Positions 145-11,677 of a stretch of DNA of 11,677 nt are shown here, one piece after another. A model generated the notes under the pieces. It saw only the letters and a program-made list of their open reading frames with translations. It was not told the DNA's origin and did no database searches. Position 1 is the stretch's first letter. Every line of letters begins with the position of its first letter. Both the position numbers and the translations under genes were made by a program. Source of the stretch: Actinomycetota bacterium (GTDB lineage: Bacteria > Actinomycetota > Thermoleophilia > RBG-16-64-13); contig PMIZ01000428.1 of NCBI GenBank assembly GCA_003157225.1, positions 1-11,677 of the forward strand, read 5' to 3'.

Positions 145-1164
145 ATGCCCGAACTACGTGTGGACGTCGATGCGATCGGGAGAAACACCGAGGCAGTGGC
201 CGCCTTGCTCTCCGAGCACGGCCTTGGCCTGGTGGCGGTGACCAAAGGGTGCCTGGGGGAACCCAGGGTCGCGGCGGCCATGATCGCCGGCGGCGCGCTG
301 GCCATCGCCGACACTCGCGATATCAACCTGCGCCGGCTTCACACCGCGCTGCCCGGAGTGGAACTCCACCGCATCCACCTGCCTTCGCTCACCGTGCCCT
401 TTGAACCGGGCGACATCACCTACGTCTCGTCCTGGGAAGGGGCGGCGGCCGTGGCCGAGCTCGGCCCCTTGGGTGATCACGAAGCCACGCCCCGGCGCGT
501 CATGGTGCAGGTGGAAACCGGGGACGAACGCGAAGGGGCACCGCTTGAGAACGTGGAGCGACTCGTACTGGACATCGCCGCAGACCCGCGCCTGGACCTG
601 GCGGGCATCTCCACCAACTACGCCTGTTTCAAGGGGACGCCGAGCGGGATCCGCCGGTCGGTGGAGTCCCTGGCGGCCGCGGCGGGCGCGCTGAGGGCGG
701 CGGGGCAGACGGTGGAAAGGGTTTCGGGGGGCAACTCCAGCCTTCTCAGCCTGCTCGTCGCCGGGGAGCGATTGCCGGTGGAAGTGACGGAGCTACGTTG
801 CGGGGAAGCCTTGCTTCTTGGCCAGGACGCTCTCTTCTATCGTCCTCTGCCGGGGTGCCGAACCGACACCTGTCTGCTGCGAGCTGAAGTGGTCGAAGAG
901 TATACTAGGCCCGCCGCCCGCGGCCTCGTGAGACGCTTGGTGCTCGGCATCGGCAGGCAAGACGTGGGTTCGGGCGGAGTCCGGTTCTTGGAGCCGGGCG
1001 TCAGCGAAATCGGGCGGTCGGCGGACTATCTGGTGGTCGAGGCCGGAGGCGAATGCCCGCCGGTCGCCGTGGGCGCGTTGATCGACATGATCCCAAGCTA
1101 CGAAGCTCTCGTGGCCGCGTGGACGTCTCCTTACGTGGAGCTGACGCTGTTGCTGGGATCCTGA
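145..1164 (+). CDS. PLP-dependent amino-acid racemase, ornithine/alanine racemase-like (COG3457 type)
   Basis: A 339-residue protein with the alanine-racemase-like N-terminal TIM-barrel fold. The likely PLP-binding lysine is K34 in the motif AVTK. Other family marks are GISTNYACF (154-162), the phosphate-binding VSGGNSS (193-199), RCGEALLLG (218-226), LGIGRQDV (267-274) and a C-terminal PSYEAL..A.TSPYVE. This pattern fits the predicted amino-acid racemase family that includes clostridial ornithine racemase better than classical Alr. It probably interconverts L and D forms of an amino acid in the cytosol; the substrate cannot be read from sequence. The start is well supported by CCGGAGG four bases upstream. 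It stands between rpsI and glmS, where actinobacteria usually carry glmM, so a link to peptidoglycan precursor supply is an inference. Only 19 nt separate it from glmS, suggesting co-transcription. A specialised non-catalytic PLP protein is less likely because the lysine and glycine-rich motifs are intact. Confidence 0.85.
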   Translation: MPELRVDVDAIGRNTEAVAALLSEHGLGLVAVTKGCLGEPRVAAAMIAGGALAIADTRDINLRRLHTALPGVELHRIHLPSLTVPFEPGDITYVSSWEGAAAVAELGPLGDHEATPRRVMVQVETGDEREGAPLENVERLVLDIAADPRLDLAGISTNYACFKGTPSGIRRSVESLAAAAGALRAAGQTVERVSGGNSSLLSLLVAGERLPVEVTELRCGEALLLGQDALFYRPLPGCRTDTCLLRAEVVEEYTRPAARGLVRRLVLGIGRQDVGSGGVRFLEPGVSEIGRSADYLVVEAGGECPPVAVGALIDMIPSYEALVAAWTSPYVELTLLLGS

Positions 1165-1183
1165 CGACGGAGGTTTATGGCTG

Positions 1184-3016
1184 ATGTGTGGAATCGTCGG
1201 ATATGCTGGCGACCGGGCTTGCCGGGACATCCTCTTTCGGGGGCTCAGGAGGCTCGAGTACAGGGGTTACGACTCGGCCGGCATCTCTATTGTGAACGAC
1301 GGACGCCTCGCGCTACTTCACTCCGTAGGCAACCTGGACAATCTGGAGGCCATCCTCGGCGGACTCGAGGGTGACGGGACCCTGGGCATCGCCCACACCC
1401 GCTGGGCCACCCACGGGAAGCCCTCGACCGAGAACGCCCATCCCCACACCGACTGCCAGGAGCGCTTCGCCATAGTGCTGAACGGCATCGTGGAGAACTA
1501 CGTGACCCTGAGGAGCGCCCTCCAGGACGAGGGACACATCTTCACCTCGGAGACCGACGCTGAGGTAGTCGCCCATCTCATTGAACGGGCGTATCAGGGC
1601 TCGCTCAAGGATGCGGTGGTCGATGCTTACCGGCAGATGGAAGGGCACTTCACCATTTGCGTGGTCGCTGTGGACGAACCTGACGTGATCGTGGGGATAC
1701 GCAAGGAGACGCCGCTGGTGGTGGGGCTGGGCGAAGGGGAGAACTTCCTGGCCTCGGCCATCCCTGCGTTTCTCGCCCACACCCGCAACGTCATCTTCCC
1801 CGACGATGGTGAGGTGGTGGTGGTCAGGCGCGACGGGGTGCAGATCTTCGATCTCGACGGCGCCACCATTGAGCGGCCGGCGCAGCACGTCGATTGGGAC
1901 GACGAGGCGGCCGAGAAGGCCGGCTACGAGACGTTCATGCTCAAGGAGATCCATGAGCAAGGCGCCGCCCTCGCCGACACCCTTGCCGAGCGTATCGGGG
2001 CCGACGGTCTGGTGACCTTGGATGGCCTCGGCCTTGAGCCCAAAGACATCGAGGCGATAGAGAGGGTAGTGATCGTCGCCTGCGGAACCTCCTATCATGC
2101 CGGACTCGTGGGCAAGCATGCCCTGGAACGCTGGGCTCGCCTGCCCGTGGAGGCCGAGGTGGCCTCCGAGTTCCGCTACCGCAACCCGGTGATCGGCCCG
2201 GATTGTTTATGCATCGCCATCAGCCAGTCGGGAGAGACCGCCGACACGCTGGCCGCCATGCGTCTGGCCCGGCAGGCCGGGGCTCGGGTGCTCGCGGTGA
2301 GCAATATCGTCGGTTCTCAAGCCACTCGCGAGGCCAACGGCGTGCTCTTCACCCGTGCCGGACTCGAAATAGGGGTGGCGGCCACCAAGACCTTCATCAG
2401 CCAGGTGCTCGCCATGTTGCTCCTCGGGTTGTACCTCGGTGAGAAACGTGGCCACCTAAGCGGAGACCAAGTGCGCGCCTACACGGAGGAACTGCGGCAC
2501 ATCCCTGGCATGCTGGACGATTATCTGGCAGCGGGCGCGGCCGCCAAGGTGGAGAGCGTGGCGGCACGCTATGCTTCCAGCCGCTACTTCATGTGCCTGG
2601 GGCGGAACGTAAGCTTCCCAATCGCTCTCGAAGGCGCGCTGAAGCTGAAGGAGATCTCCTATGTCCCCACCGAGGCCTACGCGGCCGGAGAGATGAAGCA
2701 CGGCCCTATCGCTCTGCTGGAGGAAGGCTCTCCGGTCCTGGTAGTGGCCACGGATGGGGCGGTGTACGACAAACTCATGTCCAATGTACAGGAAGTCAAG
2801 GCGCGGGGTGCCCGAGTGATCGCAGTGGCCTCCGAGGGGAACGAGACCATCGCCCAGACGGCCGACGACGTCCTGTACGTGCCTCGCACCAGCGAGATGC
2901 TGTCTCCCCTGATGGCGATCGTGCCGCTCCAACTGTTCGCCTACTATGTAGCCAAGTCCCGTGGGGAGAAGGTCGACCAGCCCCGTAATCTGGCCAAGAC
3001 CGTGACGGTGGAGTAG
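1184..3016 (+). CDS. glmS: Glutamine--fructose-6-phosphate aminotransferase (isomerizing)
   Basis: Makes glucosamine-6-phosphate from fructose-6-phosphate and glutamine, the entry step to UDP-GlcNAc and peptidoglycan. The 610-residue length is typical. The N-terminal glutaminase domain starts MCGIVGYAG, so Cys2 becomes the N-terminal nucleophile after Met removal. It also has HTRWATHG (71-78), NGIVENY (100-106) and ETDAEV (123-128). Two SIS sugar-isomerase domains follow, with ACGTSYHAG (299-307), SQSGETADT (347-355), KLKEISY (487-493), MKHGP (504-508) and the C-terminal DQPRNLAKTVTVE. E490, H506 and K605 match E. coli E488, H504 and K603. The start is fixed by the Cys2 requirement and GGAGG at 1169-1173, ten bases upstream. 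A closer ATG at 1177 is in another frame. The 19-nt leader leaves no room for a glmS ribozyme. acpS follows after 2 nt. Confidence 0.98.
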   Translation: MCGIVGYAGDRACRDILFRGLRRLEYRGYDSAGISIVNDGRLALLHSVGNLDNLEAILGGLEGDGTLGIAHTRWATHGKPSTENAHPHTDCQERFAIVLNGIVENYVTLRSALQDEGHIFTSETDAEVVAHLIERAYQGSLKDAVVDAYRQMEGHFTICVVAVDEPDVIVGIRKETPLVVGLGEGENFLASAIPAFLAHTRNVIFPDDGEVVVVRRDGVQIFDLDGATIERPAQHVDWDDEAAEKAGYETFMLKEIHEQGAALADTLAERIGADGLVTLDGLGLEPKDIEAIERVVIVACGTSYHAGLVGKHALERWARLPVEAEVASEFRYRNPVIGPDCLCIAISQSGETADTLAAMRLARQAGARVLAVSNIVGSQATREANGVLFTRAGLEIGVAATKTFISQVLAMLLLGLYLGEKRGHLSGDQVRAYTEELRHIPGMLDDYLAAGAAAKVESVAARYASSRYFMCLGRNVSFPIALEGALKLKEISYVPTEAYAAGEMKHGPIALLEEGSPVLVVATDGAVYDKLMSNVQEVKARGARVIAVASEGNETIAQTADDVLYVPRTSEMLSPLMAIVPLQLFAYYVAKSRGEKVDQPRNLAKTVTVE

Positions 3017-3018
3017 GC

Positions 3019-3435
3019 ATGGGAGCTCTCGAGGGCGGCCCGCGCGTAGGGTTCGACCTGGTCGAGCTGGACAGATTCGAGCGTGCCCTCGTTCGTCACC
3101 CGGGCCTCATAGCTCGGCTCTTCACTCCGGCCGAGGTCGCGTGCTGTGGCGCGCGGGGGAAGCCTGTCCTTCACTATGCGGCTCGTTTTGCCGCCAAGGA
3201 AGCTGTTGGTAAACTCCTGGGAAGCGGCGTCGTATCCTGGCGGGAGATCGAAGTGGCGAGAGGAGCCCCACCGCTGGTTAGCCTCACCGGGAGAACCGCC
3301 CGTCTAGCCGACGAGCAGGGCATCGCTGAGATACGGGTCTCACTGTCTCACGTGGGTTCGCTCGCGGGAGCTTGTGCCGTTGCTATGGCTTGTTCTTCGG
3401 AAGGAGCGGACGATGGACGACTGCTCGAGTCTTGA
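3019..3435 (+). CDS. acpS: Holo-[acyl-carrier-protein] synthase
   Basis: Transfers 4'-phosphopantetheine from CoA to the serine of acyl carrier protein, activating fatty-acid synthesis. The protein has 138 residues, near the usual 120-130. It carries the AcpS signature VGFDLVELDRFERAL (10-24), with metal-binding D13, and RFAAKEAVGKLLG (56-68), with catalytic E61. The C-terminal SLSH.GSLAGACAVA strand is also present. The start codon lies two bases after the glmS stop and no strong separate ribosome site is seen, so translation is probably coupled to glmS. The 3' end overlaps the next gene by 23 nt. The final ~12 residues are outside the conserved fold and exist mainly because of that overlap. 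The glmS-acpS-nnr order is familiar in actinobacteria and supports the call. Confidence 0.95.
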   Translation: MGALEGGPRVGFDLVELDRFERALVRHPGLIARLFTPAEVACCGARGKPVLHYAARFAAKEAVGKLLGSGVVSWREIEVARGAPPLVSLTGRTARLADEQGIAEIRVSLSHVGSLAGACAVAMACSSEGADDGRLLES

Positions 3436-4978
3436 CGAGCGCCCGGCGGCCTTCACGCCGGCGCAGATGCGTGAACTCGATCGGGCGACCATCGAGGACA
3501 TCGGTATCCCCGGTCCGGTGCTCATGGAACGGGCCGCCCTCGGTGTGAGCCTGTTGATCCAGACCCGGTACGCCGGGAGGCATACTCTCTTCGTCTGCGG
3601 TCCGGGCAACAACGGTGGCGATGGCTTGGCCGCGGCGCGCCAGCTTCACGTTGCCGGCCACCCGGTGGCGTGCGTGGTCGCCGCGGGATCTGCCGCGGAT
3701 CTCAGTGCCGACGCGGCCATGAACTTCCGTGCCGCGGAGAGAGCCGGCGTCAACCTGCGGCTAGGCGAGGTGCCTGACTACCTCTGGGACGAGACCGAGG
3801 TGGTGGTCGATTGCCTGCTTGGCACCGGTGCTTCGGGCGAGCTGCGCGACCGGCCGGCGGAGTGGGCCGCGAAGATCAACGCGGCAGGGGCTCGTGGAGT
3901 CCCGATAGTGGCCGTCGATGTACCTACGGGGGTCGATGCAGCGACCGGTAACATCGCGGTCGGCACTGTGGCGGCCGACGTCACCATCACCTTTCACGCA
4001 GCCAAGAGTGGCCTCGTCTGCCCCCCGGGATCGGAGGCCGCCGGGGAGGTGCTGGTATGGAACATCGGCATCCCCGAGTCGCTCGAGCCGGAGCCCGACC
4101 TCTGGGTGGTGACCGGTGAGGACGTGAACGTGCCGGGCCGCCGGGTGGACGACCACAAGTACCGGGCCGGATACGTGGCCGTTCTGGCCGGCTCGGCTGC
4201 CTATCCCGGCGCTGCCTGGCTGGCATCGCAAGCAGCCTATCGAACCGGAGCTGGCTACGTGCGTCTGCTCATGACCTCCGGTGCCGCGGCGGGGGTGAGG
4301 AATCGCCTAGTTGAGACCGTTCTCGAGGACCTCGGCCCGGGCGATTTTCTGTCCGACGCCGCATCGGTGCTCTCGGTGCTCGCCGATGAGCGCCTGGGCG
4401 CGTTGGTCGCCGGCCCTGGACTGGGGCGCCACCCCTCTACCTTCTCGGCTCTCAAGCGGGTGATACTGGAGAGCTCGGTGCCCACCGTCATCGACGCCGA
4501 TGGCATTGTGGCGTTCTCGGGCGAGGCGGAGAGCCTGCGAGGCCGACCCGGTCTGGTGCTGACGCCGCACGTGGGTGAGCTCGCGGCGCTGCTGGGAGTG
4601 CCCGCGGCGGAATTGGCCAAGACGGCATTGACTGCCGCGCGCGGCGCCGCTCGGGCCACGGGGCAGGTAGTGCTGCTCAAAGGTTCCTCGACGGTCGTAG
4701 CCGCTCCGTCGGGCGAGACACGCGCCGTGCTGCAGGGACCACCACAGCTGGCCTCGGCCGGCACCGGCGACGTGCTCTCCGGGGTGATCGGAACGCTGCT
4801 GGCGAAGGGACTCGAGCCGTTCGAAGCCGCGTATGCCGGCGCCTGGATACACGCCGAGGCGGGTAGGCTGGGGGCGCTTACCGATCCTCAGGGTGTCCTG
4901 GCAGGGGACTTGGTGGACCTTCTTCCGGACGTTATTGCCGACCACATCTACGAGAGGGGACCCTCATGGAGGAGCTGA
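3413..4978 (+). CDS. nnr: Bifunctional NAD(P)H-hydrate epimerase / ADP-dependent NAD(P)H-hydrate dehydratase
   Basis: Repairs damaged, hydrated NAD(P)H. The N-terminal YjeF_N (NnrE) domain interconverts the R and S hydrates and the C-terminal ribokinase-like (NnrD) domain dehydrates the S form at the expense of ADP. The product has 521 residues. NnrE domain, about 14-235: VCGPGNNGGDGL (61-72), DCLLGTGASG (133-142), AVDVPTGVDAATG (167-179) and TFHAAKSG (193-200). NnrD domain, about 248-512: KYRAGYVAVLAGS, VAGPGLGRHPS (332-342), DADGI (361-365), LTPHVGEL (383-390), LKGSSTVV and the ADP/substrate loop SAGTGDVLSG (448-457). I chose ATG 3413 over an upstream GTG at 3374 because AAGGAG (3401-3406) sits six bases before it and it skips a non-conserved extension. 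It overlaps acpS by 23 nt and the next gene by 13 nt, suggesting tight translational coupling. Confidence 0.95.
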   Translation: MDDCSSLDERPAAFTPAQMRELDRATIEDIGIPGPVLMERAALGVSLLIQTRYAGRHTLFVCGPGNNGGDGLAAARQLHVAGHPVACVVAAGSAADLSADAAMNFRAAERAGVNLRLGEVPDYLWDETEVVVDCLLGTGASGELRDRPAEWAAKINAAGARGVPIVAVDVPTGVDAATGNIAVGTVAADVTITFHAAKSGLVCPPGSEAAGEVLVWNIGIPESLEPEPDLWVVTGEDVNVPGRRVDDHKYRAGYVAVLAGSAAYPGAAWLASQAAYRTGAGYVRLLMTSGAAAGVRNRLVETVLEDLGPGDFLSDAASVLSVLADERLGALVAGPGLGRHPSTFSALKRVILESSVPTVIDADGIVAFSGEAESLRGRPGLVLTPHVGELAALLGVPAAELAKTALTAARGAARATGQVVLLKGSSTVVAAPSGETRAVLQGPPQLASAGTGDVLSGVIGTLLAKGLEPFEAAYAGAWIHAEAGRLGALTDPQGVLAGDLVDLLPDVIADHIYERGPSWRS

Positions 4979-5430
4979 CAGTCAGGGACATAATGAAGAC
5001 CGACGTGATCACGGTCGGTCCGGAGACGTCAGTGCGCGAACTGGCCGACATTCTCGCCGAGCACAAGATCAGCGGCGTACCGGTGGTGGACGGCGAGGGG
5101 ATGGTGGTCGGCATCGTGACCGATTCCGACGTGATCCTCCAGGACGCCGACCTCCATTTCCCCTACTACGTCCAGTTCTTGGACAGCGTCATCTATCTGG
5201 AGAGCTTCCACAACTTCCGCGAACGCTTCCGCAAAGCCTACGGGTCCAAGGTGAGCGAGATCATGAGCAGTGAAGTGATCACGATCTCTCCCGACGCTTC
5301 GGTACACGAGGCGGCCACGCTCATGGCCGATCGCAAGGTCAACCGGCTTCCGGTGACGCACGCGCACAAGCTGGTAGGCATTGTCACCAGGGGTGATATC
5401 GTGCAGGCCATCGCCGAGAAGAAGGCATAA
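4966..5430 (+). CDS. Tandem CBS-domain protein
   Basis: A 154-residue stand-alone Bateman module. CBS1 spans about residues 6-58 (DIMKTDVITV, SGVPVVD, GIVTDSD) and CBS2 about 96-152 (EIMSSEVITI, NRLPV, GIVTRGD). The GIVT.(S/G)D segments are the usual adenine-nucleotide ribose/phosphate contact sites. Between the halves is a 35-residue aromatic, helical insert (about 60-94, HFPYYVQFLDSVIYLESF) that is longer than a standard linker and could be a dimer or partner interface. No catalytic domain is attached, so it is probably a cytosolic sensor of AMP/ATP or a related ligand acting on a partner. Its start overlaps the nnr 3' end by 13 nt and is preceded by GAGAGGGGA, so it belongs to the same operon. 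The specific ligand and target are unknown. Confidence 0.9.
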   Translation: MEELTVRDIMKTDVITVGPETSVRELADILAEHKISGVPVVDGEGMVVGIVTDSDVILQDADLHFPYYVQFLDSVIYLESFHNFRERFRKAYGSKVSEIMSSEVITISPDASVHEAATLMADRKVNRLPVTHAHKLVGIVTRGDIVQAIAEKKA

Positions 5431-5460
5431 GAGCTCCAAGAGGGGTGGCACGACAGGATC

Positions 5461-5820
5461 ATGTCCAAGAAAGCAACACGGAGAGCCGCGAGACAGGCCT
5501 TCCCCAAGGCGAAGACGCCCCCGCCGGCCAGGTCGGCATACCGGGCGCGGCCGAAGTCCTCGGCCGGAAGCCGGGGCAGGGCGCCCGTAAGGCTGATCCC
5601 GAAACCCGCGAGCGTCAAGAAGTCGGCGATCATGGGATTGGTCATGGGTGTGGCCTACTTCCTGTTGATCCAGTTCGCCTGGAAGAGCAACACCACCACC
5701 ACCGGGGGGAACCTGATCATCGCGGCGGCTGGTTGTCTGATATCCGGCGGGGTCTTCTACCTCACCGACCGCCTCAAGTACCAGCGGTACCTGCGCAAGA
5801 AGAATGGGTCGTCCAGGTGA
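5461..5820 (+). CDS. Small, highly basic two-helix membrane protein, unknown function
   Basis: I do not recognise a named family. The 119-residue product has a ~54-residue N-terminal tail with 17 Lys/Arg and no acidic residue. Two predicted membrane helices follow, about 55-73 (AIMGLVMGVAYFLLIQFAW) and 83-101 (GNLIIAAAGCLISGGVFY), with a short TNTTTTGG-like polar turn between, then a basic C-tail (DRLKYQRYLRKK). By the positive-inside rule both ends should be cytosolic. D103 is the only acidic residue in the protein. The start is plausible but has a weak ribosome site (GAGGGGTGG, 12 nt upstream). The gene sits 30 nt after the CBS gene and 30 nt before the nucleotidyltransferase. The basic tail suggests binding to nucleic acid, ribosome or acidic lipid, but this is only inference. 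Coding reality is supported by the clear hydrophobic segments and codon bias. Confidence 0.75.
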   Translation: MSKKATRRAARQAFPKAKTPPPARSAYRARPKSSAGSRGRAPVRLIPKPASVKKSAIMGLVMGVAYFLLIQFAWKSNTTTTGGNLIIAAAGCLISGGVFYLTDRLKYQRYLRKKNGSSR

Positions 5821-5850
5821 TGCTGGTCGTGGGCGCGCGATAGAGCCGGC

Positions 5851-7119
5851 ATGATGTCCCTGCAGGTCGTCGCCGATATCCTGCGGCGCCGGCAGACTCA
5901 GGGGTGGCTGGTAGGCGGCAGCGTGCGCGACCGCGAGCTGGGACGCCTCTCTCCCGATCTCGACATCGTGGTGACCGACGACGCGGGGGCGGTAGCCCGC
6001 GAGATCGCGCGACGGCTGGACGTTCCTTGGTTCGTCCTCTCCGAAAGGCATCCGGCGTACAGGGTCATGACCCGCGAGGGTCGCATCGACGTGGCGCCGG
6101 TGAAGGGCGATGGCATCCTTGACGATCTCGGTGAGCGAGACTTCACCGTGAACGCCATGGCTGTGCCGATAGGCGAGACAGAGGTGCTGGATCCCTTTGG
6201 AGGCGTCGCCCATCTCCGGGAACGGCGCCTGGTAACGGTGTCTGAGCGGGTGTTTCGCGACGACCCGCTGCGGATGATGCGCGCGGCTCGCTTTCGTCAA
6301 GTGCTCGGCCTCGAGATCGAGCCGGCGCTTGCCGCCGCGGTGCGGGGGCAAGCGCCCCTCCTTGCCGGCACCGCCGCCGAGCGCATCGTGGCCGAGATGG
6401 CGCTCACGCTGGCCGCCGGCCGGTCCGCCGAGGCGGTGCGCCAGTGGCGCGATCTGGGGCTGCTTGCGCAGTTCTTGCCTGAGACGTCGTGGGATGATCG
6501 GCTCGAGACGACGCTGGTGGTGCTGGAGACGCTCGACGAGATCCTAGACCGGCCCGCCACGTGGTTCCCAAAGGCGGCGCGAGCACTTAGCGGCCGTCTT
6601 GAGCAGCCTCTCGATGGCGCGTTCGCTCGCCCCGTTGCTGTGCGATTGGCCGGACTGATGCACCGAATGCGGCCCGAAGAGGCGGTCCGGGCGGGTCGTA
6701 GGCTGAAGCTGTCGGCGGACATGGTGTCGCTGGCGTCCACCCTGGCGCGCCGAGGGCAGGTGGGCAGTGGCCTCCCGCCGGCGCCGCGGGGGCGCGAGGC
6801 GGTGCTCTTCCTGTGGGAGGTGGCTCCCTGGGAGCCCGAGGTCATCCTTCTCGAAGCTGCAAGAACCACCGACGTTCTCGACACCCTGAATGGCCTGCTC
6901 GATCTGTGGCACGCGTGGGCTTCGGGTGAGGCGCCGCAGGCGCCCGTGGACGGAGTGTCACTGATGTGCGAGCTGGGTCTGGGGAGCGGTCCGCTTCTGG
7001 GCACGGTGCTGCGCGAAGCCCGGCTGGCTTGGGAGGCCGGTGAAGCTACCGACTTGGATCAGGTGCTCGCCGTGGCGCGCGCGGCTCTCGCTCGCGGCAC
7101 CTCGTCGGGCGAGACGTGA
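5851..7119 (+). CDS. Class II CCA-adding / poly(A)-polymerase-type nucleotidyltransferase
   Basis: A 422-residue member of the class II tRNA nucleotidyltransferase superfamily. The N-terminal palm carries GGSVRD (22-27), the metal-binding pair in PDLDIVV (D36, D38), RIDVAP (78-83), ERDFTVNAMA (95-104), LDPFGG (113-118) and the RNA-binding motif RDDPLRMMRAARF (136-148). The helical neck and body follow, then a long C-terminal region (about 215-422) of helices with no visible HD metal-binding motif. It probably adds or repairs the 3' CCA of tRNA. Poly(A) polymerase and A- or CC-adding enzymes share these motifs and cannot be separated by eye. The start could be ATG 5851 or 5854; neither has a strong Shine-Dalgarno. 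The reading frame is the same as that of the preceding gene, whose TGA (5818-5820) is 30 nt upstream. The gene ends just before a large hairpin that separates it from convergent genes. Confidence 0.92.
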   Translation: MMSLQVVADILRRRQTQGWLVGGSVRDRELGRLSPDLDIVVTDDAGAVAREIARRLDVPWFVLSERHPAYRVMTREGRIDVAPVKGDGILDDLGERDFTVNAMAVPIGETEVLDPFGGVAHLRERRLVTVSERVFRDDPLRMMRAARFRQVLGLEIEPALAAAVRGQAPLLAGTAAERIVAEMALTLAAGRSAEAVRQWRDLGLLAQFLPETSWDDRLETTLVVLETLDEILDRPATWFPKAARALSGRLEQPLDGAFARPVAVRLAGLMHRMRPEEAVRAGRRLKLSADMVSLASTLARRGQVGSGLPPAPRGREAVLFLWEVAPWEPEVILLEAARTTDVLDTLNGLLDLWHAWASGEAPQAPVDGVSLMCELGLGSGPLLGTVLREARLAWEAGEATDLDQVLAVARAALARGTSSGET

Positions 7120-7142
7120 TTCCGCAGCGACCTCCAGTAGCA

Positions 7143-7180
7143 GTCCGCGCCGGCTCCTCCCGCAAGGAGCCGGCGCGGAC
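7143..7180. terminator. Perfect 16-bp inverted repeat between convergent genes, probable bidirectional terminator
   Basis: GTCCGCGCCGGCTCCT (7143-7158) is exactly complementary to AGGAGCCGGCGCGGAC (7165-7180), with the six-base loop CCCGCA. It lies 23 nt after the nucleotidyltransferase stop and 46 nt after the stop of the - strand SLH gene. Neither side has a T tract, so it resembles the U-less hairpins seen between convergent genes in GC-rich actinobacteria rather than a canonical intrinsic terminator. It could instead stabilise 3' ends or serve as a protein-binding dyad. The remainder of the gap holds only a weak 5-bp hairpin (GCGCC 7191-7195 / GGCGC 7202-7206). Confidence 0.7.
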
Positions 7181-7226
7181 GGGTAATCCAGCGCCTGGAC
7201 TGGCGCCCGATTCCTTTCTTCGTGCG

Positions 7227-8312
7227 CTACTGCGCGTCTATCTCCACCACCTGAGAGGCCCACTTGCCGCTCGAGGTCACCTGATCAGCCTTCGGGCTGA
7301 CGAAGGCTATCCGCAGCGCCCCCTCGCTGGACTTGAGGGCGTGACCGTCGACAGAGTAGGCCAAGATTACGGTGATGCTGCCGTCGATGGTGGTGACCTC
7401 GTCACCCGTGGTCGGGTTGAACATCGTGACCTTGCCCTTGACGTCATCCGCCGAGAACTGCGCCTTATAGCCGTCGGCCGCGATCGCGTTCATCGTGGTG
7501 ACTCCGCCGGCCAACTTCATCAGGTCCTTGATAGCGACGCCCTTGTAGAGCTTCGGCGCTGTGATATTGCCGGTCTTGTTCTTCCAGCCGCCATAGCCCT
7601 CGGTGGCCGTCATGGCCTTGAGTTCGGCCAGCGTGAATTCCAGCGTACCGGTGGGGCCGGTCACCTTCAGGATCTTCCCCGTGCGGTAGAACAGCTGTGC
7701 GAGTATCTCGGCCGCCTCGCCGCGAGTGGCGTTCGCGGTCGGATTCCAGCTCGCCAGGTCGGCAATGCCGGTGAGCAGGCCGTTGTACTCGGCCTTCCTG
7801 AGGTTGGCGCCGTGGGCCGGGTTGGAGTAGTCGAGCACGCCCTTGTAGTCCGCGGGCGGCTCGGCGAGAGCTGCGCCCGCGGCACGCACCGCTACGCTGA
7901 TCGCCTGCTGCCGGCTCACGTTCTCGTAGAAACCGAAAGTGCCATCGGTGTGTCCCTGGATGATCCCCTGCTGTGCCGCGACTGCTACGTAGCAGCCCGG
8001 GTACAATTGGGTGACAGGGTCGTACGGGGCGGGAGTGTCGGAGAATGGGGATTGATCCGCAGCCGAAACGGGATAGCCCAGGGTCAAGACCGCCATCTTC
8101 GCGAACTGCTGCCGCTGCAGCGGGTTGTCGGGCCTGAACGTACCGTCGTCGTAGCCGCCGATGTATCCACGCGACGCGAGAGCCAGAATGCTGGCTGAGT
8201 AGTCGCTGTTATCTATATCGGTGAACTTGGCGGCAGCCAGAGCGGGAACCGCCACCGCGAGCACAAGGACCACCACCAGCACCAGTCCCGCTATCAACCG
8301 AATCCTTCTCAT
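7227..8312 (-). CDS. Secreted SLH-domain protein with C-terminal SUOX-like (cysteine-less) domain
   Basis: A 361-residue exported protein. The signal peptide is residues 1-28 (MRRIRLIAG, a hydrophobic run, then ALAAA). Three S-layer homology repeats follow, about 29-79 (FTDI..YIGGYDDGTFRP), 90-146 (FSDT..IIQGHTDGTF) and 159-208 (LTGIADLASWNPTANATRGEAA). SLH repeats anchor proteins to pyruvylated secondary cell-wall polymers. Residues 213-361 form a domain like the sulfite-oxidase/YedY molybdopterin-binding fold: TLAELKAM, GYGGWKN, LYKGVAIKDLMKLAGG, AADGY, GSITVILAY, ALRIAFVSP, DQVT. It contains no cysteine, so it cannot bind Mo like YedY. The same domain occurs in both neighbours. I chose ATG 8312 over a 21-codon upstream extension because GAGAGGAG lies five bases before it and the signal peptide begins there. 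It is 62 nt downstream of the other - strand gene, probably one transcript. Fold assignment is from remembered motifs and is moderate; the SLH call is firm. Confidence 0.88.
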   Translation of the reverse strand: MRRIRLIAGLVLVVVLVLAVAVPALAAAKFTDIDNSDYSASILALASRGYIGGYDDGTFRPDNPLQRQQFAKMAVLTLGYPVSAADQSPFSDTPAPYDPVTQLYPGCYVAVAAQQGIIQGHTDGTFGFYENVSRQQAISVAVRAAGAALAEPPADYKGVLDYSNPAHGANLRKAEYNGLLTGIADLASWNPTANATRGEAAEILAQLFYRTGKILKVTGPTGTLEFTLAELKAMTATEGYGGWKNKTGNITAPKLYKGVAIKDLMKLAGGVTTMNAIAADGYKAQFSADDVKGKVTMFNPTTGDEVTTIDGSITVILAYSVDGHALKSSEGALRIAFVSPKADQVTSSGKWASQVVEIDAQ

Positions 8313-8374
8313 GAACACTCCTCTCACGGCCGTTCCCCGTATTGACTGTGCCGGCGCGGTGATGCCGCTCGGCA

Positions 8375-9199
8375 CTACTGGACCTTCAGCTCGACGACCA
8401 TCCTGACCCAGAGCTTGCTGGGTGTCACTTGGTCCTTCGCGGAACTGACGAAGGCCAGCCGAAGCGGTCCCTCGCTGGAGCTGAGCGCCGCCCCATCCTT
8501 CGCATACGCGACTATGACTCTCAAGCTCCCGTTTATGCTGCTGACGGTCTCACCGCTGCCCGGGTCGAACATTGTCACCTGGCCCGCCGCCTGTCCGGAC
8601 GACAGCATCTGCGAGTAGCCGTCGGAAGCGACGACTGTAACCGAACCGCCGCCGCCTACTAGCTCCGTCAGGGATTTCAGCGAGACACCCGTCCACGATA
8701 CCGGACCTGTGATGTTGCTGAGGTCGTTCTTCCAGCCGCCGTATCCGGACGTGGCGGACATGGCTCTGAGATCGGCCAAGGAGAGTTGCTTGGTGCCCGA
8801 CGGACCGCTGAGCTTGAGAGCCACCAGGCCTTTGCTGGTGGTCGTGGTCGGCTTGGCGGTGGTGGTGGTCGCCGAGGTGGCGGTGGTCGTGGGTTTGACG
8901 CTGCTCATGGTCGTCTGGCCCGAGGTCGAGGCGACCGCGCTACTCGAGGAAGTGCTCGCCGCGGACGGGGCGGTGGTGATCTCGGCGGATTGAGCCGTGC
9001 TGCCTGCCGAAGCGCTCGTGGATGAAGTCACGGAGTCCGTGGAACTGGTGACCAGGGCCGAGGTGCTGGTCGGCAGCATGGTGGATTCGCTCGAGTTCTG
9101 TCCACCCGAGCAGGCCCCGAGCAGGAAAGCGGTTGCCAAGACGAAGAAGGCGGCGGTCGCCAGCAAGACCGGTGCCCGGCGCCTGGTGAAGAACTGCAT
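8375..9199 (-). CDS. Lipoprotein with long Ser/Thr linker and SUOX-like (cysteine-less) domain
   Basis: A 274-residue predicted lipoprotein. Residues 1-29 are a basic n-region (RRR) and hydrophobic core ending in the lipobox LGAC, giving lipid-modified Cys30, the only cysteine. Residues 31-125 are a low-complexity Ser/Thr/Ala linker ending in TTTTAKPTTTTSK, long enough to cross a thick wall and a likely glycosylation target. Residues 126-274 form the shared domain: LKLSGPSGTKQLSLADL, GYGGWKN, SWTGVSLKSLTELVGG, ASDGY, GSLRVIVAY, GPLRLAFVS, KDQVT. By eye it is about half identical to the C-terminal domain of the SLH neighbour, so the two are close paralogues. ATG 9199 is preferred to a start 10 codons upstream, because GAGGTG precedes it and the signal peptide starts there. 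It is the first gene of a probable two-gene - strand transcript. Function is unknown; proximity to wtpAB suggests a role in tungstate/molybdate handling. Confidence 0.85.
   Translation of the reverse strand: MQFFTRRRAPVLLATAAFFVLATAFLLGACSGGQNSSESTMLPTSTSALVTSSTDSVTSSTSASAGSTAQSAEITTAPSAASTSSSSAVASTSGQTTMSSVKPTTTATSATTTTAKPTTTTSKGLVALKLSGPSGTKQLSLADLRAMSATSGYGGWKNDLSNITGPVSWTGVSLKSLTELVGGGGSVTVVASDGYSQMLSSGQAAGQVTMFDPGSGETVSSINGSLRVIVAYAKDGAALSSSEGPLRLAFVSSAKDQVTPSKLWVRMVVELKVQ
8825..9109 (-). repeat. Low-complexity Ser/Thr-rich linker coding tract
   Basis: This stretch encodes residues 31-125 of the lipoprotein gene. Serine, threonine and alanine dominate, with runs such as TSSTDSVTSSTSASAGS and TTTATSATTTTAKPTTTT. 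On the + strand it shows ggtggt/gtcgtgg-like repeats around 8837-8897. Such tracts vary in length by slippage and serve as flexible, often O-glycosylated, wall-spanning tethers in monoderm bacteria. Confidence 0.8.
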
Positions 9200-9288
9200 T
9201 GTGCACCTCAGCGAATGTAGTAATTGCACGGCTACATGTGGTATCTAAGAACGGTCTCATAGCCTGTAGACGGCGTCAAGGAGCCGAA
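9200..9288. promoter_or_regulatory. Divergent promoter region with an inverted repeat
   Basis: These 89 nt separate the two divergently transcribed SUOX-like lipoprotein genes, so they must hold the promoter of the - strand pair and of the lipoprotein-wtpAB operon. The ribosome site AAGGAG (9278-9283) serves the + strand gene. A dyad ATGTAG (9215-9220) / CTACAT (9232-9237) with an 11-nt spacer is present and could be an operator. It does not resemble the ModE consensus I know. I could not assign convincing -35/-10 pairs: TTGCAC (9224-9229) and, on the - strand, TTGACG (9279-9274) are -35-like but have no good partner. The region is too short for a Moco riboswitch plus promoter. Confidence 0.45.
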
Positions 9289-10311
9289 ATGGTCTCGACA
9301 AAGAGGTTCGTTCTCCAGTCCCTAGTGTGCGTAGCTTCCCTGGTCGCGGTCCTGGCCGTTCTGATCGCTCTGAGCGGCTGTGGCTCCGACAAGACGACCG
9401 CCGGAGCAGGCGAGGGCATCCTCCAGGTGACCGGCACCGGCGGGACGAAGAGCTACTCGCTCGCGCAGCTCGAGAAGATGCCCAGCAAGGAAGGCTACGG
9501 GGGGATGAAGAGTTCCACGGGCCGCATCACCCCGCCAGTCAAGGTCAAGGGCGTGCTCCTTGACGACCTGTTCGCCGAGGTAGGTGGCTTGCCCGCGGAC
9601 ATGGCTGTGACCATCGGAGCCAAGGATGGCTACGACATGACTTTCTCGGTGGAACAGCTCAAGACCGGCGACTTCATCACCTACGACATGGTCACCGGGG
9701 ACGAGAAGAAGGTCGATGGTCCGCTCAGCGTGATCGTGGCCTACGAGTATGACGGCAAGCCCCTCGACCCGGCCGGTGATGGTCCCTTGCGTCTCGCCAT
9801 CGTGAGCCCGGAGATGAACCAGGTGACCGACGGTCATTGGTGGGTCAAGTGGGTCACCAAGGCCGAGGTGAAACCCATCGAGCAGGAATGGACCCTACAG
9901 CTCAAGGGCAAGCTGACCGAAGCCGTCGACAAGGCCACCTTCCAGTCCGGCGCCGCTCAGGGTTGCCATGGCAACACCTGGACCGATGCCCAGGGCAACA
10001 CCTGGACCGGCATCCCGCTGTACAACCTGGTGGGCCGCGTCGACGACGACATCGCCCATGAGGGCCCCGCCTACAACCGCGACCTGGCCCAGGCCGGCTA
10101 TCAAGTGAAGATCACCACGGCCGACGGCAAGAGCGTCGAAGTGAGCAGCAAGACCATGTACTACAAGAAGGACATCATCGTCGCCTACCAGATGAACGGC
10201 AAGCCTCTCCCGGAGAACTACTGGCCGTTGCGACTCGTGGGAACGGGGCTGAGCGACAGTGACATGGTCGGCCAGATCACCGAGATCGACGCGCTGGTGC
10301 CCACGGGGTAG
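9289..10311 (+). CDS. Lipoprotein with two SUOX-like domains
   Basis: A 340-residue predicted lipoprotein. The signal ends in lipobox LSGC, giving lipidated Cys31, then only a ~12-residue linker. Domain 1 (about 44-195) is homologous to the domains of the two - strand neighbours: YSLAQLEKM, GYGGMKS, KVKGVLLDDLFAEVGG, AKDGY, GPLSVIVAY, GPLRLAIVSP, NQVT. It has no cysteine. Domain 2 (about 197-337) is a divergent copy: GCHGNTWT (225-232), GNTWTGIPLYNLVGRVDDD, TTADGK, IIVAYQMNGKPLP, WPLRLVGTG, VGQITEIDAL. Its C226-H227 lies near where the Mo-ligating cysteine of sulfite-oxidase/YedY proteins is expected, so this half alone might bind a metal cofactor. Such proteins are often auto-labelled molybdopterin-dependent oxidoreductase. 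ATG 9289 is chosen for AAGGAG five bases upstream and the signal peptide start. wtpA follows after 4 nt, so the two are almost certainly co-transcribed, which ties this protein to tungstate/molybdate uptake. Confidence 0.87.
   Translation: MVSTKRFVLQSLVCVASLVAVLAVLIALSGCGSDKTTAGAGEGILQVTGTGGTKSYSLAQLEKMPSKEGYGGMKSSTGRITPPVKVKGVLLDDLFAEVGGLPADMAVTIGAKDGYDMTFSVEQLKTGDFITYDMVTGDEKKVDGPLSVIVAYEYDGKPLDPAGDGPLRLAIVSPEMNQVTDGHWWVKWVTKAEVKPIEQEWTLQLKGKLTEAVDKATFQSGAAQGCHGNTWTDAQGNTWTGIPLYNLVGRVDDDIAHEGPAYNRDLAQAGYQVKITTADGKSVEVSSKTMYYKKDIIVAYQMNGKPLPENYWPLRLVGTGLSDSDMVGQITEIDALVPTG
9970..10009 (+). repeat. 16-bp direct repeat inside the coding region, 24-bp period
   Basis: GGCAACACCTGGACCG occurs at 9970-9985 and again at 9994-10009, separated by 8 nt. 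It encodes GNTWTDAQ-GNTWTG, an eight-residue tandem duplication directly after Cys226-His227 of the second SUOX-like domain. The exact nucleotide identity suggests either a recent duplication or strong constraint. Confidence 0.85.
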
Positions 10312-10315
10312 CCCG

Positions 10316-11470
10316 GTGGCGCCGCCCTTTCAAAACGCACGGACGCGCCGTCGACGGCTTCCGGCGTCGTTGCTGGCATCGCTGATTGCACTCCTGGCTG
10401 TTCTGGGGACGGTCGGACTGTTCTCTGTGGGCTGCTCACACTCCGGCCGGACTACGTCCTCAGGCGGAGGGGGCGGCAAGGTGACCGTGCGGGTGCTCTT
10501 CGCGGGGAGCCTGATCATTCCCTTCGCGCAGCTCGAGAAGGCGTTCGAGGCCGCTCATCCTGACATCGACGTCAACATGGAGGGCCATGGGAGCATCCAA
10601 GCCGTCCGCATCGTGAGCGACACGCACGAGCAGGCCGATCTCGTCGTTACCGCGGATTACCGGCTCATACCGATGCTGCTCTACCAGACGAAGGACCCGG
10701 ACTCGGGATTGCCTTATGCGAAGTGGAGCGTCATGTTCGCCACTAACAAGATGGCCCTCGCCTACACGGACAAGAGCGCCTTCGCGAGCGAGATCGGCCC
10801 GGACAACTGGTTCGACGTCATCGACCGGCCGGGCGTTCGGCTCGGGCTATCCGATCCCCGCTTCGACGCCAACGGGTACCGGGCCCTAATGACCGTCAAG
10901 CTCGCCGAGAGCTACTACGGCCAGCCCGGCCTCTTCGCCAAGACCTTCGGCGGCGTCTTTCGGATACCGGTGACAGCGGGCGGGACCGCGGACAACTCGA
11001 CCATCACCGTTCCCGAGATCCTCGAGACCAAGAGCGGCTCCCACGTGGTGCTCCGTCCGTACAGCGTCAACCTGCTTCCCCTGCTCTCCTCGGGAGACAT
11101 CGACTACGCTTTCGAGTACGAGAGTGTCATCAAGCAGCACGGCTTGAAGTACGTCTCCTTGCCTCCCGAGCTCAACCTGGGCGATCCCGCCTACGCCGCC
11201 GACTACGGCCGGGTGACGGTCAAGCTGGACTTCCAGCGCTTCGCTAGCGTCAAGCCGGAATTCACCGGGGAGCCGATACGGTACGGGGCGACCATCCCCA
11301 GCAACGCCCGCCAGCCGGAGGCCGCGGCGCTGCTGCTGGCCTTCCTCCTGGGGCCTGAAGGGCAACGCATCATGTCGCAGAACTACCAACCCATGATCAC
11401 GCCTGCCCTCACCGACGATCTTTCCGACCTTCCGGAGCCTGTCAAGGCCTACTGCACCTCCGGGAACTGA
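10316..11470 (+). CDS. wtpA: Tungstate/molybdate ABC transporter substrate-binding lipoprotein
   Basis: A 384-residue WtpA/ModA-type oxyanion-binding protein. Residues 11-40 are an Arg-rich n-region, a hydrophobic core and C40 in FSVGC, a non-canonical lipobox, followed by a short Ser/Gly linker. The mature domain starts VRVLFAGSLIIPF (58-70). It continues with EGHGSIQAVR (89-98), ADLVVTADYRLIPM (107-120), WSVMFATNKMALAYTDKS (137-154), LSDPRFDANGYRALM (178-192), VLRPYSVNLLPLL (245-257), DYAFEYESVIKQHGLKY (263-279) and LLGPEGQ (344-350). This matches archaeal-type WtpA well. S65, S93, D184 and an acid of FEYES (E267 or E269) are the likely oxyanion ligands, the two acids giving the octahedral site known for WtpA; exact residue mapping is inferred. 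The start is GTG 10316, seven bases after GGGG and 4 nt after the previous stop; a GTG at 10259 would overlap that gene more. The permease gene follows. Confidence 0.93.
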   Translation: MAPPFQNARTRRRRLPASLLASLIALLAVLGTVGLFSVGCSHSGRTTSSGGGGGKVTVRVLFAGSLIIPFAQLEKAFEAAHPDIDVNMEGHGSIQAVRIVSDTHEQADLVVTADYRLIPMLLYQTKDPDSGLPYAKWSVMFATNKMALAYTDKSAFASEIGPDNWFDVIDRPGVRLGLSDPRFDANGYRALMTVKLAESYYGQPGLFAKTFGGVFRIPVTAGGTADNSTITVPEILETKSGSHVVLRPYSVNLLPLLSSGDIDYAFEYESVIKQHGLKYVSLPPELNLGDPAYAADYGRVTVKLDFQRFASVKPEFTGEPIRYGATIPSNARQPEAAALLLAFLLGPEGQRIMSQNYQPMITPALTDDLSDLPEPVKAYCTSGN

Positions 11471-11483
11471 CGGGGTCTGTCCC

Positions 11484-11677
11484 GTGAACCGGGTTCGAGT
11501 CCTCAGCCGGATGGACTGGGTCTTCTCGCTGCTCGGCCTTCTGCTGCTGCTCTTCATCCTCGTGCCGCTGTTGGCGACCATCTTCGCCTCGAGCCCAGGG
11601 GACTTCTGGCGAGGGATAGCCGACAAGGGGGTGCTTGCCTCGCTGTGGCTGACGTTCACCGCGGCCCTCGCGGCTAC
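11484..11677 (+). CDS. wtpB: Tungstate/molybdate ABC transporter permease, N-terminal part
   Basis: A + strand gene begins with GTG 13 nt after the wtpA stop and is cut by the window end after 64 codons. The sequence VNRVRVLSRMDWVFSLLG leads into a first membrane helix (about 12-33, rich in Leu). Then comes a loop (SSPGDFWRGIADKGV) and the start of a second helix with SLWLTFTAALAAT, a typical opening of the BPD_transp_1 (MetI-like) permease domain and close to archaeal WtpB. It would form the channel for oxyanion import with WtpA and an ATPase (WtpC) expected downstream. ATG 11511 is an alternative start but lacks any ribosome site; GTG 11484 has only a weak one (GGGG, 11472-11475). Confidence 0.87.
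   Translation, partial: MNRVRVLSRMDWVFSLLGLLLLLFILVPLLATIFASSPGDFWRGIADKGVLASLWLTFTAALAA

Follow-up and report, generated by a model that had tools for sequence, protein, structure and literature searches.

SUOX-fold domains that accompany genes of a tungstate/molybdate importer in an actinomycetotal genome are best understood as accessory parts of importer-mediated uptake. The domains are encoded in an 11,677-nucleotide (nt) stretch of DNA from an Actinomycetota bacterium (contig PMIZ01000428.1; hereafter the window), in which three neighbouring genes (g1, g2 and g3) carry four SUOX-like domains in total and g3 immediately precedes wtpA and the start of wtpB (Table 1). An accessory role in uptake is given a probability of about 0.85 because such domains are recurrently associated with the binding proteins ModA, TupA and WtpA and with other importers, both in gene order and through gene fusions. 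The observed basis is the similarity of fold, the location signals, the absence of the metal-ligand cysteine, the conserved gene order and the fusions. In the best reading, the window modules belong to a wider set that also accompanies ModABC, TupABC and certain importers of the FecCD and ECF types.

The four domains are related and adopt the SUOX fold. The initial annotation had proposed that the adjacent genes share a homologous extracytoplasmic domain, and this was borne out. Identity between the g1 and g2 domains is 51% over 147 residues, and that between the g1 domain and the first domain of g3 (D1) is 41% over 152 columns. The second domain of g3 (D2) is a distant member, with 25% identity to D1 in a four-way alignment and a BLASTP match that spans just 22 columns (E = 4e-5, single comparison). 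The PF00174 model matches g3 at 57.1 bits (cut-off 24) and scores below the cut-off for g2 (17.2 bits) and g1 (15.1 bits) taken singly; judged by their sequences, the g1 and g2 domains are clear D1 homologues despite these scores. The predicted g3 structure has a mean predicted local distance difference test (pLDDT) value of 91.7. Among solved structures, D1 is nearest to the pterin-binding PruR proteins and to sulfite oxidases, and D2 to YedY. At E ≤ 1e-3, 479 homologues of g3 were obtained, the best 120 of which supplied the homologue details, along with 68 of g2 (query included). The g1 protein also matches PF00395 (SLH) in two stretches (64.9 bits).

The position of g3 upstream of wtpA is conserved. 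In the window, g3 ends at position 10311 and wtpA likely starts at 10316, leaving the 4 nt that had been noted initially. The wtpA product passes TIGR03730 (294.9 bits, cut-off 242.75), falls under the PRK04168 cut-off (313.3 against 355) and has MA_0280 as its best PDB match (3K6U, E = 6.8e-68). The interrupted wtpB matches NF040839 partially (27.2 bits, cut-off 340). The relatives' loci L001, L002 and L040 contain a complete wtpB after wtpA, and wtpB- and wtpC-like genes come after wtpA in these three loci and in L007. A genome contig scan located wtpA directly downstream of g3 on the same strand in all eight loci, from seven genomes of Actinomycetota, Chloroflexi and Acetothermia. In a survey of 119 genomes of the relatives' class (g3 defined as a two-domain protein above 180 bits and wtpA as above 300 bits), two-domain g3 was present in ten genomes and was followed by wtpA in eight, by the contig end in G074 and by another importer in G029. 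Direct linkage was thus observed in eight of nine testable genomes, as the G074 contig ends too early. Ten class genomes contain wtpA, and a g3-type sequence adjoins it in nine, in fragmentary form in G080. Among 301 Chloroflexota genomes (wtpA counted at E ≤ 1e-15), four full g3 copies were found in three genomes, each with wtpA next to it. These frequencies uphold the initial expectation that the pairing of fold and transporter exceeds chance.

Related arrangements surround this core. Three close relatives also have the g1- and g2-type genes; these are divergent in L001 and L040, whereas L002 has them on the same strand. A G003 gene for a single-domain lipoprotein (PF00174, 35.1 bits) is flanked by a fragment of wtpA on one side and by a wtpB-like gene (NF040839, 276.7, under the cut-off of 340) on the other. 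Genes for molybdenum-cofactor synthesis lie downstream in some loci: wtpC is followed by a MoaA and a MoCF_biosynth protein in G080 (Pfam) and by moaA-, moaC- and mogA-like genes in G062 (by eye), and MoaE in L006 and MoCF_biosynth in L008 lie farther downstream. In L006 and L008, two different wtpA-like genes flank g3.

The linkage extends beyond WtpABC to further importers. A gene in G070 fuses ModA (TIGR01256, 173.7, cut-off 62.5) to a SUOX domain that lacks cysteine (PF00174, 31.7, cut-off 24), and modB (TIGR02141, 217.6, cut-off 182.6) lies right after it. A search with this domain, which represents a sister subtype, returned 50 proteins, of which 29 had a binding-protein domain precomputed and were analysed. 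Counted as protein clusters, these sister-domain fusions comprise 20 with TupA, seven with ModA (the cluster of the query included) and two with FecB/IsdE-type proteins; PF00174 matches 26 of the 29 at E ≤ 1e-3. The remaining 21 proteins have no listed binding-protein domain, and some of them are g3-like with the sister subtype as a further domain (e.g. P0198). The SUOX domain is N-terminal in some TupA fusions and C-terminal in others, and the use of both ends therefore requires two fusion events or a rearrangement. A CxxC motif (ACADC or similar) is frequent in sister-type D3 domains (e.g. P0220, P0080 and P0104) and absent from the ModA-fused sister-type domains of the window's relatives.

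The sister subtype is also encoded by eight stand-alone genes in six class genomes. Seven of them (one each in G029, G064 and G070, two on two short contigs of G001 and two in G002) are clustered with genes for a FecB-type binding protein, a FecCD permease or both, and these clusters variously add FmdE, DUF364 or NTPase_1 (some named by Pfam, others by eye). At G002:C7, the binding protein is present and the FecCD permease is not in the stretch read. The eighth gene (G017) adjoins CotH-like genes. The repeated cluster consists of a FecCD permease, an ABC ATPase, a FecB-type binding protein and a SUOX lipoprotein together with FmdE, a DUF4213/DUF364 and/or an NTPase_1 protein. The FmdE protein hints at a molybdenum (Mo) or tungsten (W) substrate.

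In Bipolaricaulota, D1-like matches occur in 30 of 100 genomes. Ten loci were read, and an ECF S component directly follows a triple-domain protein in eight and is absent from two. In seven of the eight, a whole ECF set (PF09819 S component, double ABC ATPase and CbiQ-type T component; Pfam names from L073) is followed by another single-domain protein. A g2-like lipoprotein also comes after Liv-type importer genes in G092 (by eye), and in L052 a g2-like SUOX lipoprotein shares its strand with the Liv-type ABC importer genes that precede it (gene names by eye). Some domain-search matches resemble real SUOX enzymes. As a whole, the survey showed the linkage to be conserved and wider than WtpABC, encompassing ModA, TupA and FecB-type fusions and FecCD-type and ECF neighbours.

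Tungstoenzymes co-occur with the gene pair. AOR proteins (PF02730) were found in 32 of the 119 class genomes overall and in all ten genomes with g3 and wtpA (P = 6e-7, kinship ignored; G074, whose contig ends before wtpA, is included). G029 lacks AOR, and its g3-like protein has no CH motif and is located with a FecCD importer.

Several observations weigh against the best reading. The g3 module is dispensable because 14 of the 17 Chloroflexota genomes with wtpA lack a full g3 and wtpA occurs without g3 in G068. AOR is present in 22 class genomes that do not contain the g3–wtpA pair. Fusions are rare in the genomes sampled; the only end-to-end fusion among the 119 class genomes is that of G070, and among 71 Chloroflexota genomes with TupA, one match (G356) clearly enters the domain, with N-terminal fusions being uncountable. 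No importer is in view near the domain genes at L049, L050, L053, L083 and L127, and a Mo/W substrate is unproven for the ECF, FecCD-type and Liv-type partners. Moreover, hhalign places C226 of D2 opposite the Mo-ligand cysteine (probability 90).

The pocket residues differ between the domains. No cysteine is found in the g1, g2 and D1 domains. At the Mo-ligand position, 28 of 29 D1-type sequences contain Ser, Asn or Thr and one contains Cys. The PLR arginine is retained in 26 of the 29 sequences and the VKW lysine in 23. In sulfite oxidase, this arginine and lysine grip the pterin phosphate, and the residues retained in D1 could hold either a tetrahedral oxyanion or metal-pterin. D2 has mostly lost the VKW lysine (K in 1 of 23), and in the sister subtype the PLR arginine is likewise gone. 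Strongly conserved polar residues are R168, H183, H227, D252, H257 and R315, with H257 invariant across 64 sequences; from the sequence, the Cys-His pair of D2 and the distal histidine could be a candidate metal site. The N-terminus of the window g3 contains a lipobox and no twin arginine. Among 113 full-length g3 homologues, 97 exhibit the lipobox pattern and 16 a loose twin-arginine pattern. The window SUOX-fold domains are probably not molybdenum cofactor (Moco) enzymes because three of the four lack cysteine and the lipoprotein signal of g3 contains no twin-arginine motif.

PruR, as described in a review, is a SUOX-fold pterin binder that has Trp in place of the ligand cysteine and consists of a single domain of ∼170 residues coupled to DcpA (PMC13259868). 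D1, and g1 and g2 through their homology to D1, resemble PruR in the SUOX fold, the missing Mo-ligand cysteine and the extracytoplasmic location. By analogy, the domains could be extracellular binders of a free reduced pterin that sense it or regulate the importer allosterically instead of carrying the metal; this reading is considered unlikely. The PLR arginine is kept in D1, whereas the PruR chains compared (PDB 7KOM, 7KP2, 7KOS and 7RKB) have Trp or Phe there, and the Ser, Asn or Thr of D1-type sequences departs from the reported Trp-for-Cys replacement. In contrast to PruR, as far as it is described, the window proteins are two-domain or anchored and are coupled to an importer. The neighbours noticed in the loci read are importers, with no DcpA-type partner among them, although no GGDEF/EAL search was aimed at one, and a sensor role alone leaves the binding-protein fusions unexplained.

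A purely structural role, in which the domain would keep the binding protein of the importer in the envelope as a docking module or spacer without binding a small ligand, has a similarly low likelihood. The diversity of the partners (Wtp, Mod, Tup, FecCD-type and ECF), the loss of the ligand cysteine from most domains and of the PLR arginine from the sister subtype, and the SLH and long-linker anchors favor such a role, but the six conserved polar residues suggest a site, and the pocket-type arginine and lysine persist in D1. Less likely than either is that the domains are extracellular receptors that salvage Mo or W from the metal-pterins (Moco, its tungsten counterpart Tuco or breakdown products) of dead neighbours. 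A captured metal-pterin would have its metal stripped or presented and fed to ModA, TupA or WtpA, and the pterin might also be recovered through the ECF or FecCD-type partners; salvage would account for the recruitment of a Moco fold next to all three known Mo/W importer families.

There is little reason to favor g3 as a SUOX-family Mo/W enzyme that uses the imported metal, although this would explain its operon position. Sulfite oxidase, SorA and YedY/MsrP share the fold and part of the pocket residues with the window domains, g3 carries the PF00174 annotation, D2 is structurally nearest to YedY, and C226 pairs with the Mo-ligand cysteine in hhalign, where MAFFT assigns a histidine. However, the other three domains are free of cysteine, D2 has lost the VKW lysine, and a recurrent partnership and fusion with importers would be odd for an enzyme. 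Exported Moco enzymes need twin-arginine translocation, and the g3 homologues predominantly carry lipoboxes. A c-type heme site in D2, with g3 as an electron carrier, is highly improbable: the invariant H257, the 123 motif matches in the best 120 of the 479 homologues (CX4CH in 27 and CX2CH in 5) and a weak match to the diheme-protein model NF041762, which lies within D1 for the window proteins, are offset by a single cysteine before the histidine in 90 of the 123 matches, including the window g3 (GCHG, not CXXCH), by two cysteines in the 82% identical relative P0002 and by CPCH in two ECF-linked relatives, and such variation in cysteine number is unusual for heme attachment.

Within the accessory role, we infer the ligand, its handover, the direction of transfer and co-transcription as follows. 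The g1, g2 and g3 domains may, as a tentative proposal, be cofactor-less extracytoplasmic accessory modules of WtpABC that feed an oxyanion or metal-pterin to the binding protein. The old molybdopterin pocket, which three of the four domains keep without the metal-binding thiolate, would bind the ligand outside the cell. The SLH anchor of g1, the long linker of the g2 lipoprotein and the lipid anchor of g3 suggest capture and concentration toward WtpA, close to the membrane. The g3 protein, whose gene is probably co-transcribed with wtpA, would then hand the ligand to WtpA for import. The initial suggestion that the domains capture, store, sense or use an oxyanion or metal-pterin was supported in part: an importer-accessory role is likely, the ligand is a matter of inference, and use by an enzyme is improbable.

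WtpABC, ModABC and TupABC are usually described as a binding protein, a permease and an ATPase; the window contains WtpA and the start of WtpB, and relatives of its domains are fused to ModA and TupA. A SUOX-fold component for these importers is absent from the accessible part of a comparative survey, which lists new molybdoprotein fusions, none of them with ModA, TupA or WtpA (PMC6147048). The main text of an article that covers W transport does not contain the words SUOX or sulfite oxidase in the part available (PMC9246946). A literature search limited to open-licence papers found no report of a SUOX-fold domain with importers.

Table 1. Coordinates of the window genes and domains and of related loci.
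Locus	Feature	Position	Strand	Description
Window	g1	7227..8312	-	signal peptide, N-terminal SLH part, C-terminal SUOX-like domain
Window	g1 SUOX-like domain	7230-7670	-	
Window	g2	8375..9199	-	lipoprotein, long Ser/Thr-rich linker, one SUOX-like domain
Window	g2 SUOX-like domain	8378-8839	-	
Window	g3	9289..10311	+	lipoprotein, lipobox Cys 31, two SUOX-like domains
Window	g3 domain D1	9409..9882	+	Cys-free
Window	g3 domain D2	9883..10308	+	conserved Cys226-His227 (nt 9964-9969) and His257 (nt 10057-10059)
Window	wtpA	10316..11470	+	tungstate/molybdate-binding lipoprotein, likely GTG start at 10316
Window	wtpB	11484..11677	+	start of permease gene, GTG at about 11484, interrupted by window end
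Window	housekeeping genes	145-7119		racemase-like, glmS, acpS/nnrD-like, CCA transferase (named by eye)
L006	wtpA-like genes flanking g3	2-778, 2382-3350		
L008	wtpA-like genes flanking g3	6946-7848, 9005-9928		
L122	FecCD-type cluster	2936-7360		partly by eye
L123	FecCD-type cluster	180-5211		partly by eye
L124	FecCD-type cluster	4439-9743		partly by eye
L125	FecCD-type cluster			partly by eye
L126	FecCD-type cluster			partly by eye
L048	FecCD-type cluster	3931-10404		partly by eye
L073	ECF locus	5589-10863		triple-domain SUOX-like protein, ECF importer, single-domain protein
L077	ECF locus	6741-12007		as L073
L079	ECF locus	5116-10498		as L073
L052	Liv-type locus	7689-13768		g2-like lipoprotein after importer genes

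The order of the housekeeping genes is kept upstream of g1–g3 in L040 and, within the visible contig stretch, in L001.

Molybdenum and tungsten are scarce metals, and depictions of their importers usually show the three standard parts only. If the accessory role is true, that picture would change: importers would have a recurring extra component, built on a metal-cofactor fold and fused in some cases to two of the three known binding proteins. Some of the best 120 of the 479 g3 homologues carry the name 'DMSO/TMAO reductase YedYZ catalytic subunit' or 'molybdopterin-dependent oxidoreductase', and many proteins so named would then not be enzymes. The pattern suggests an undescribed helper component in the uptake of scarce metals.
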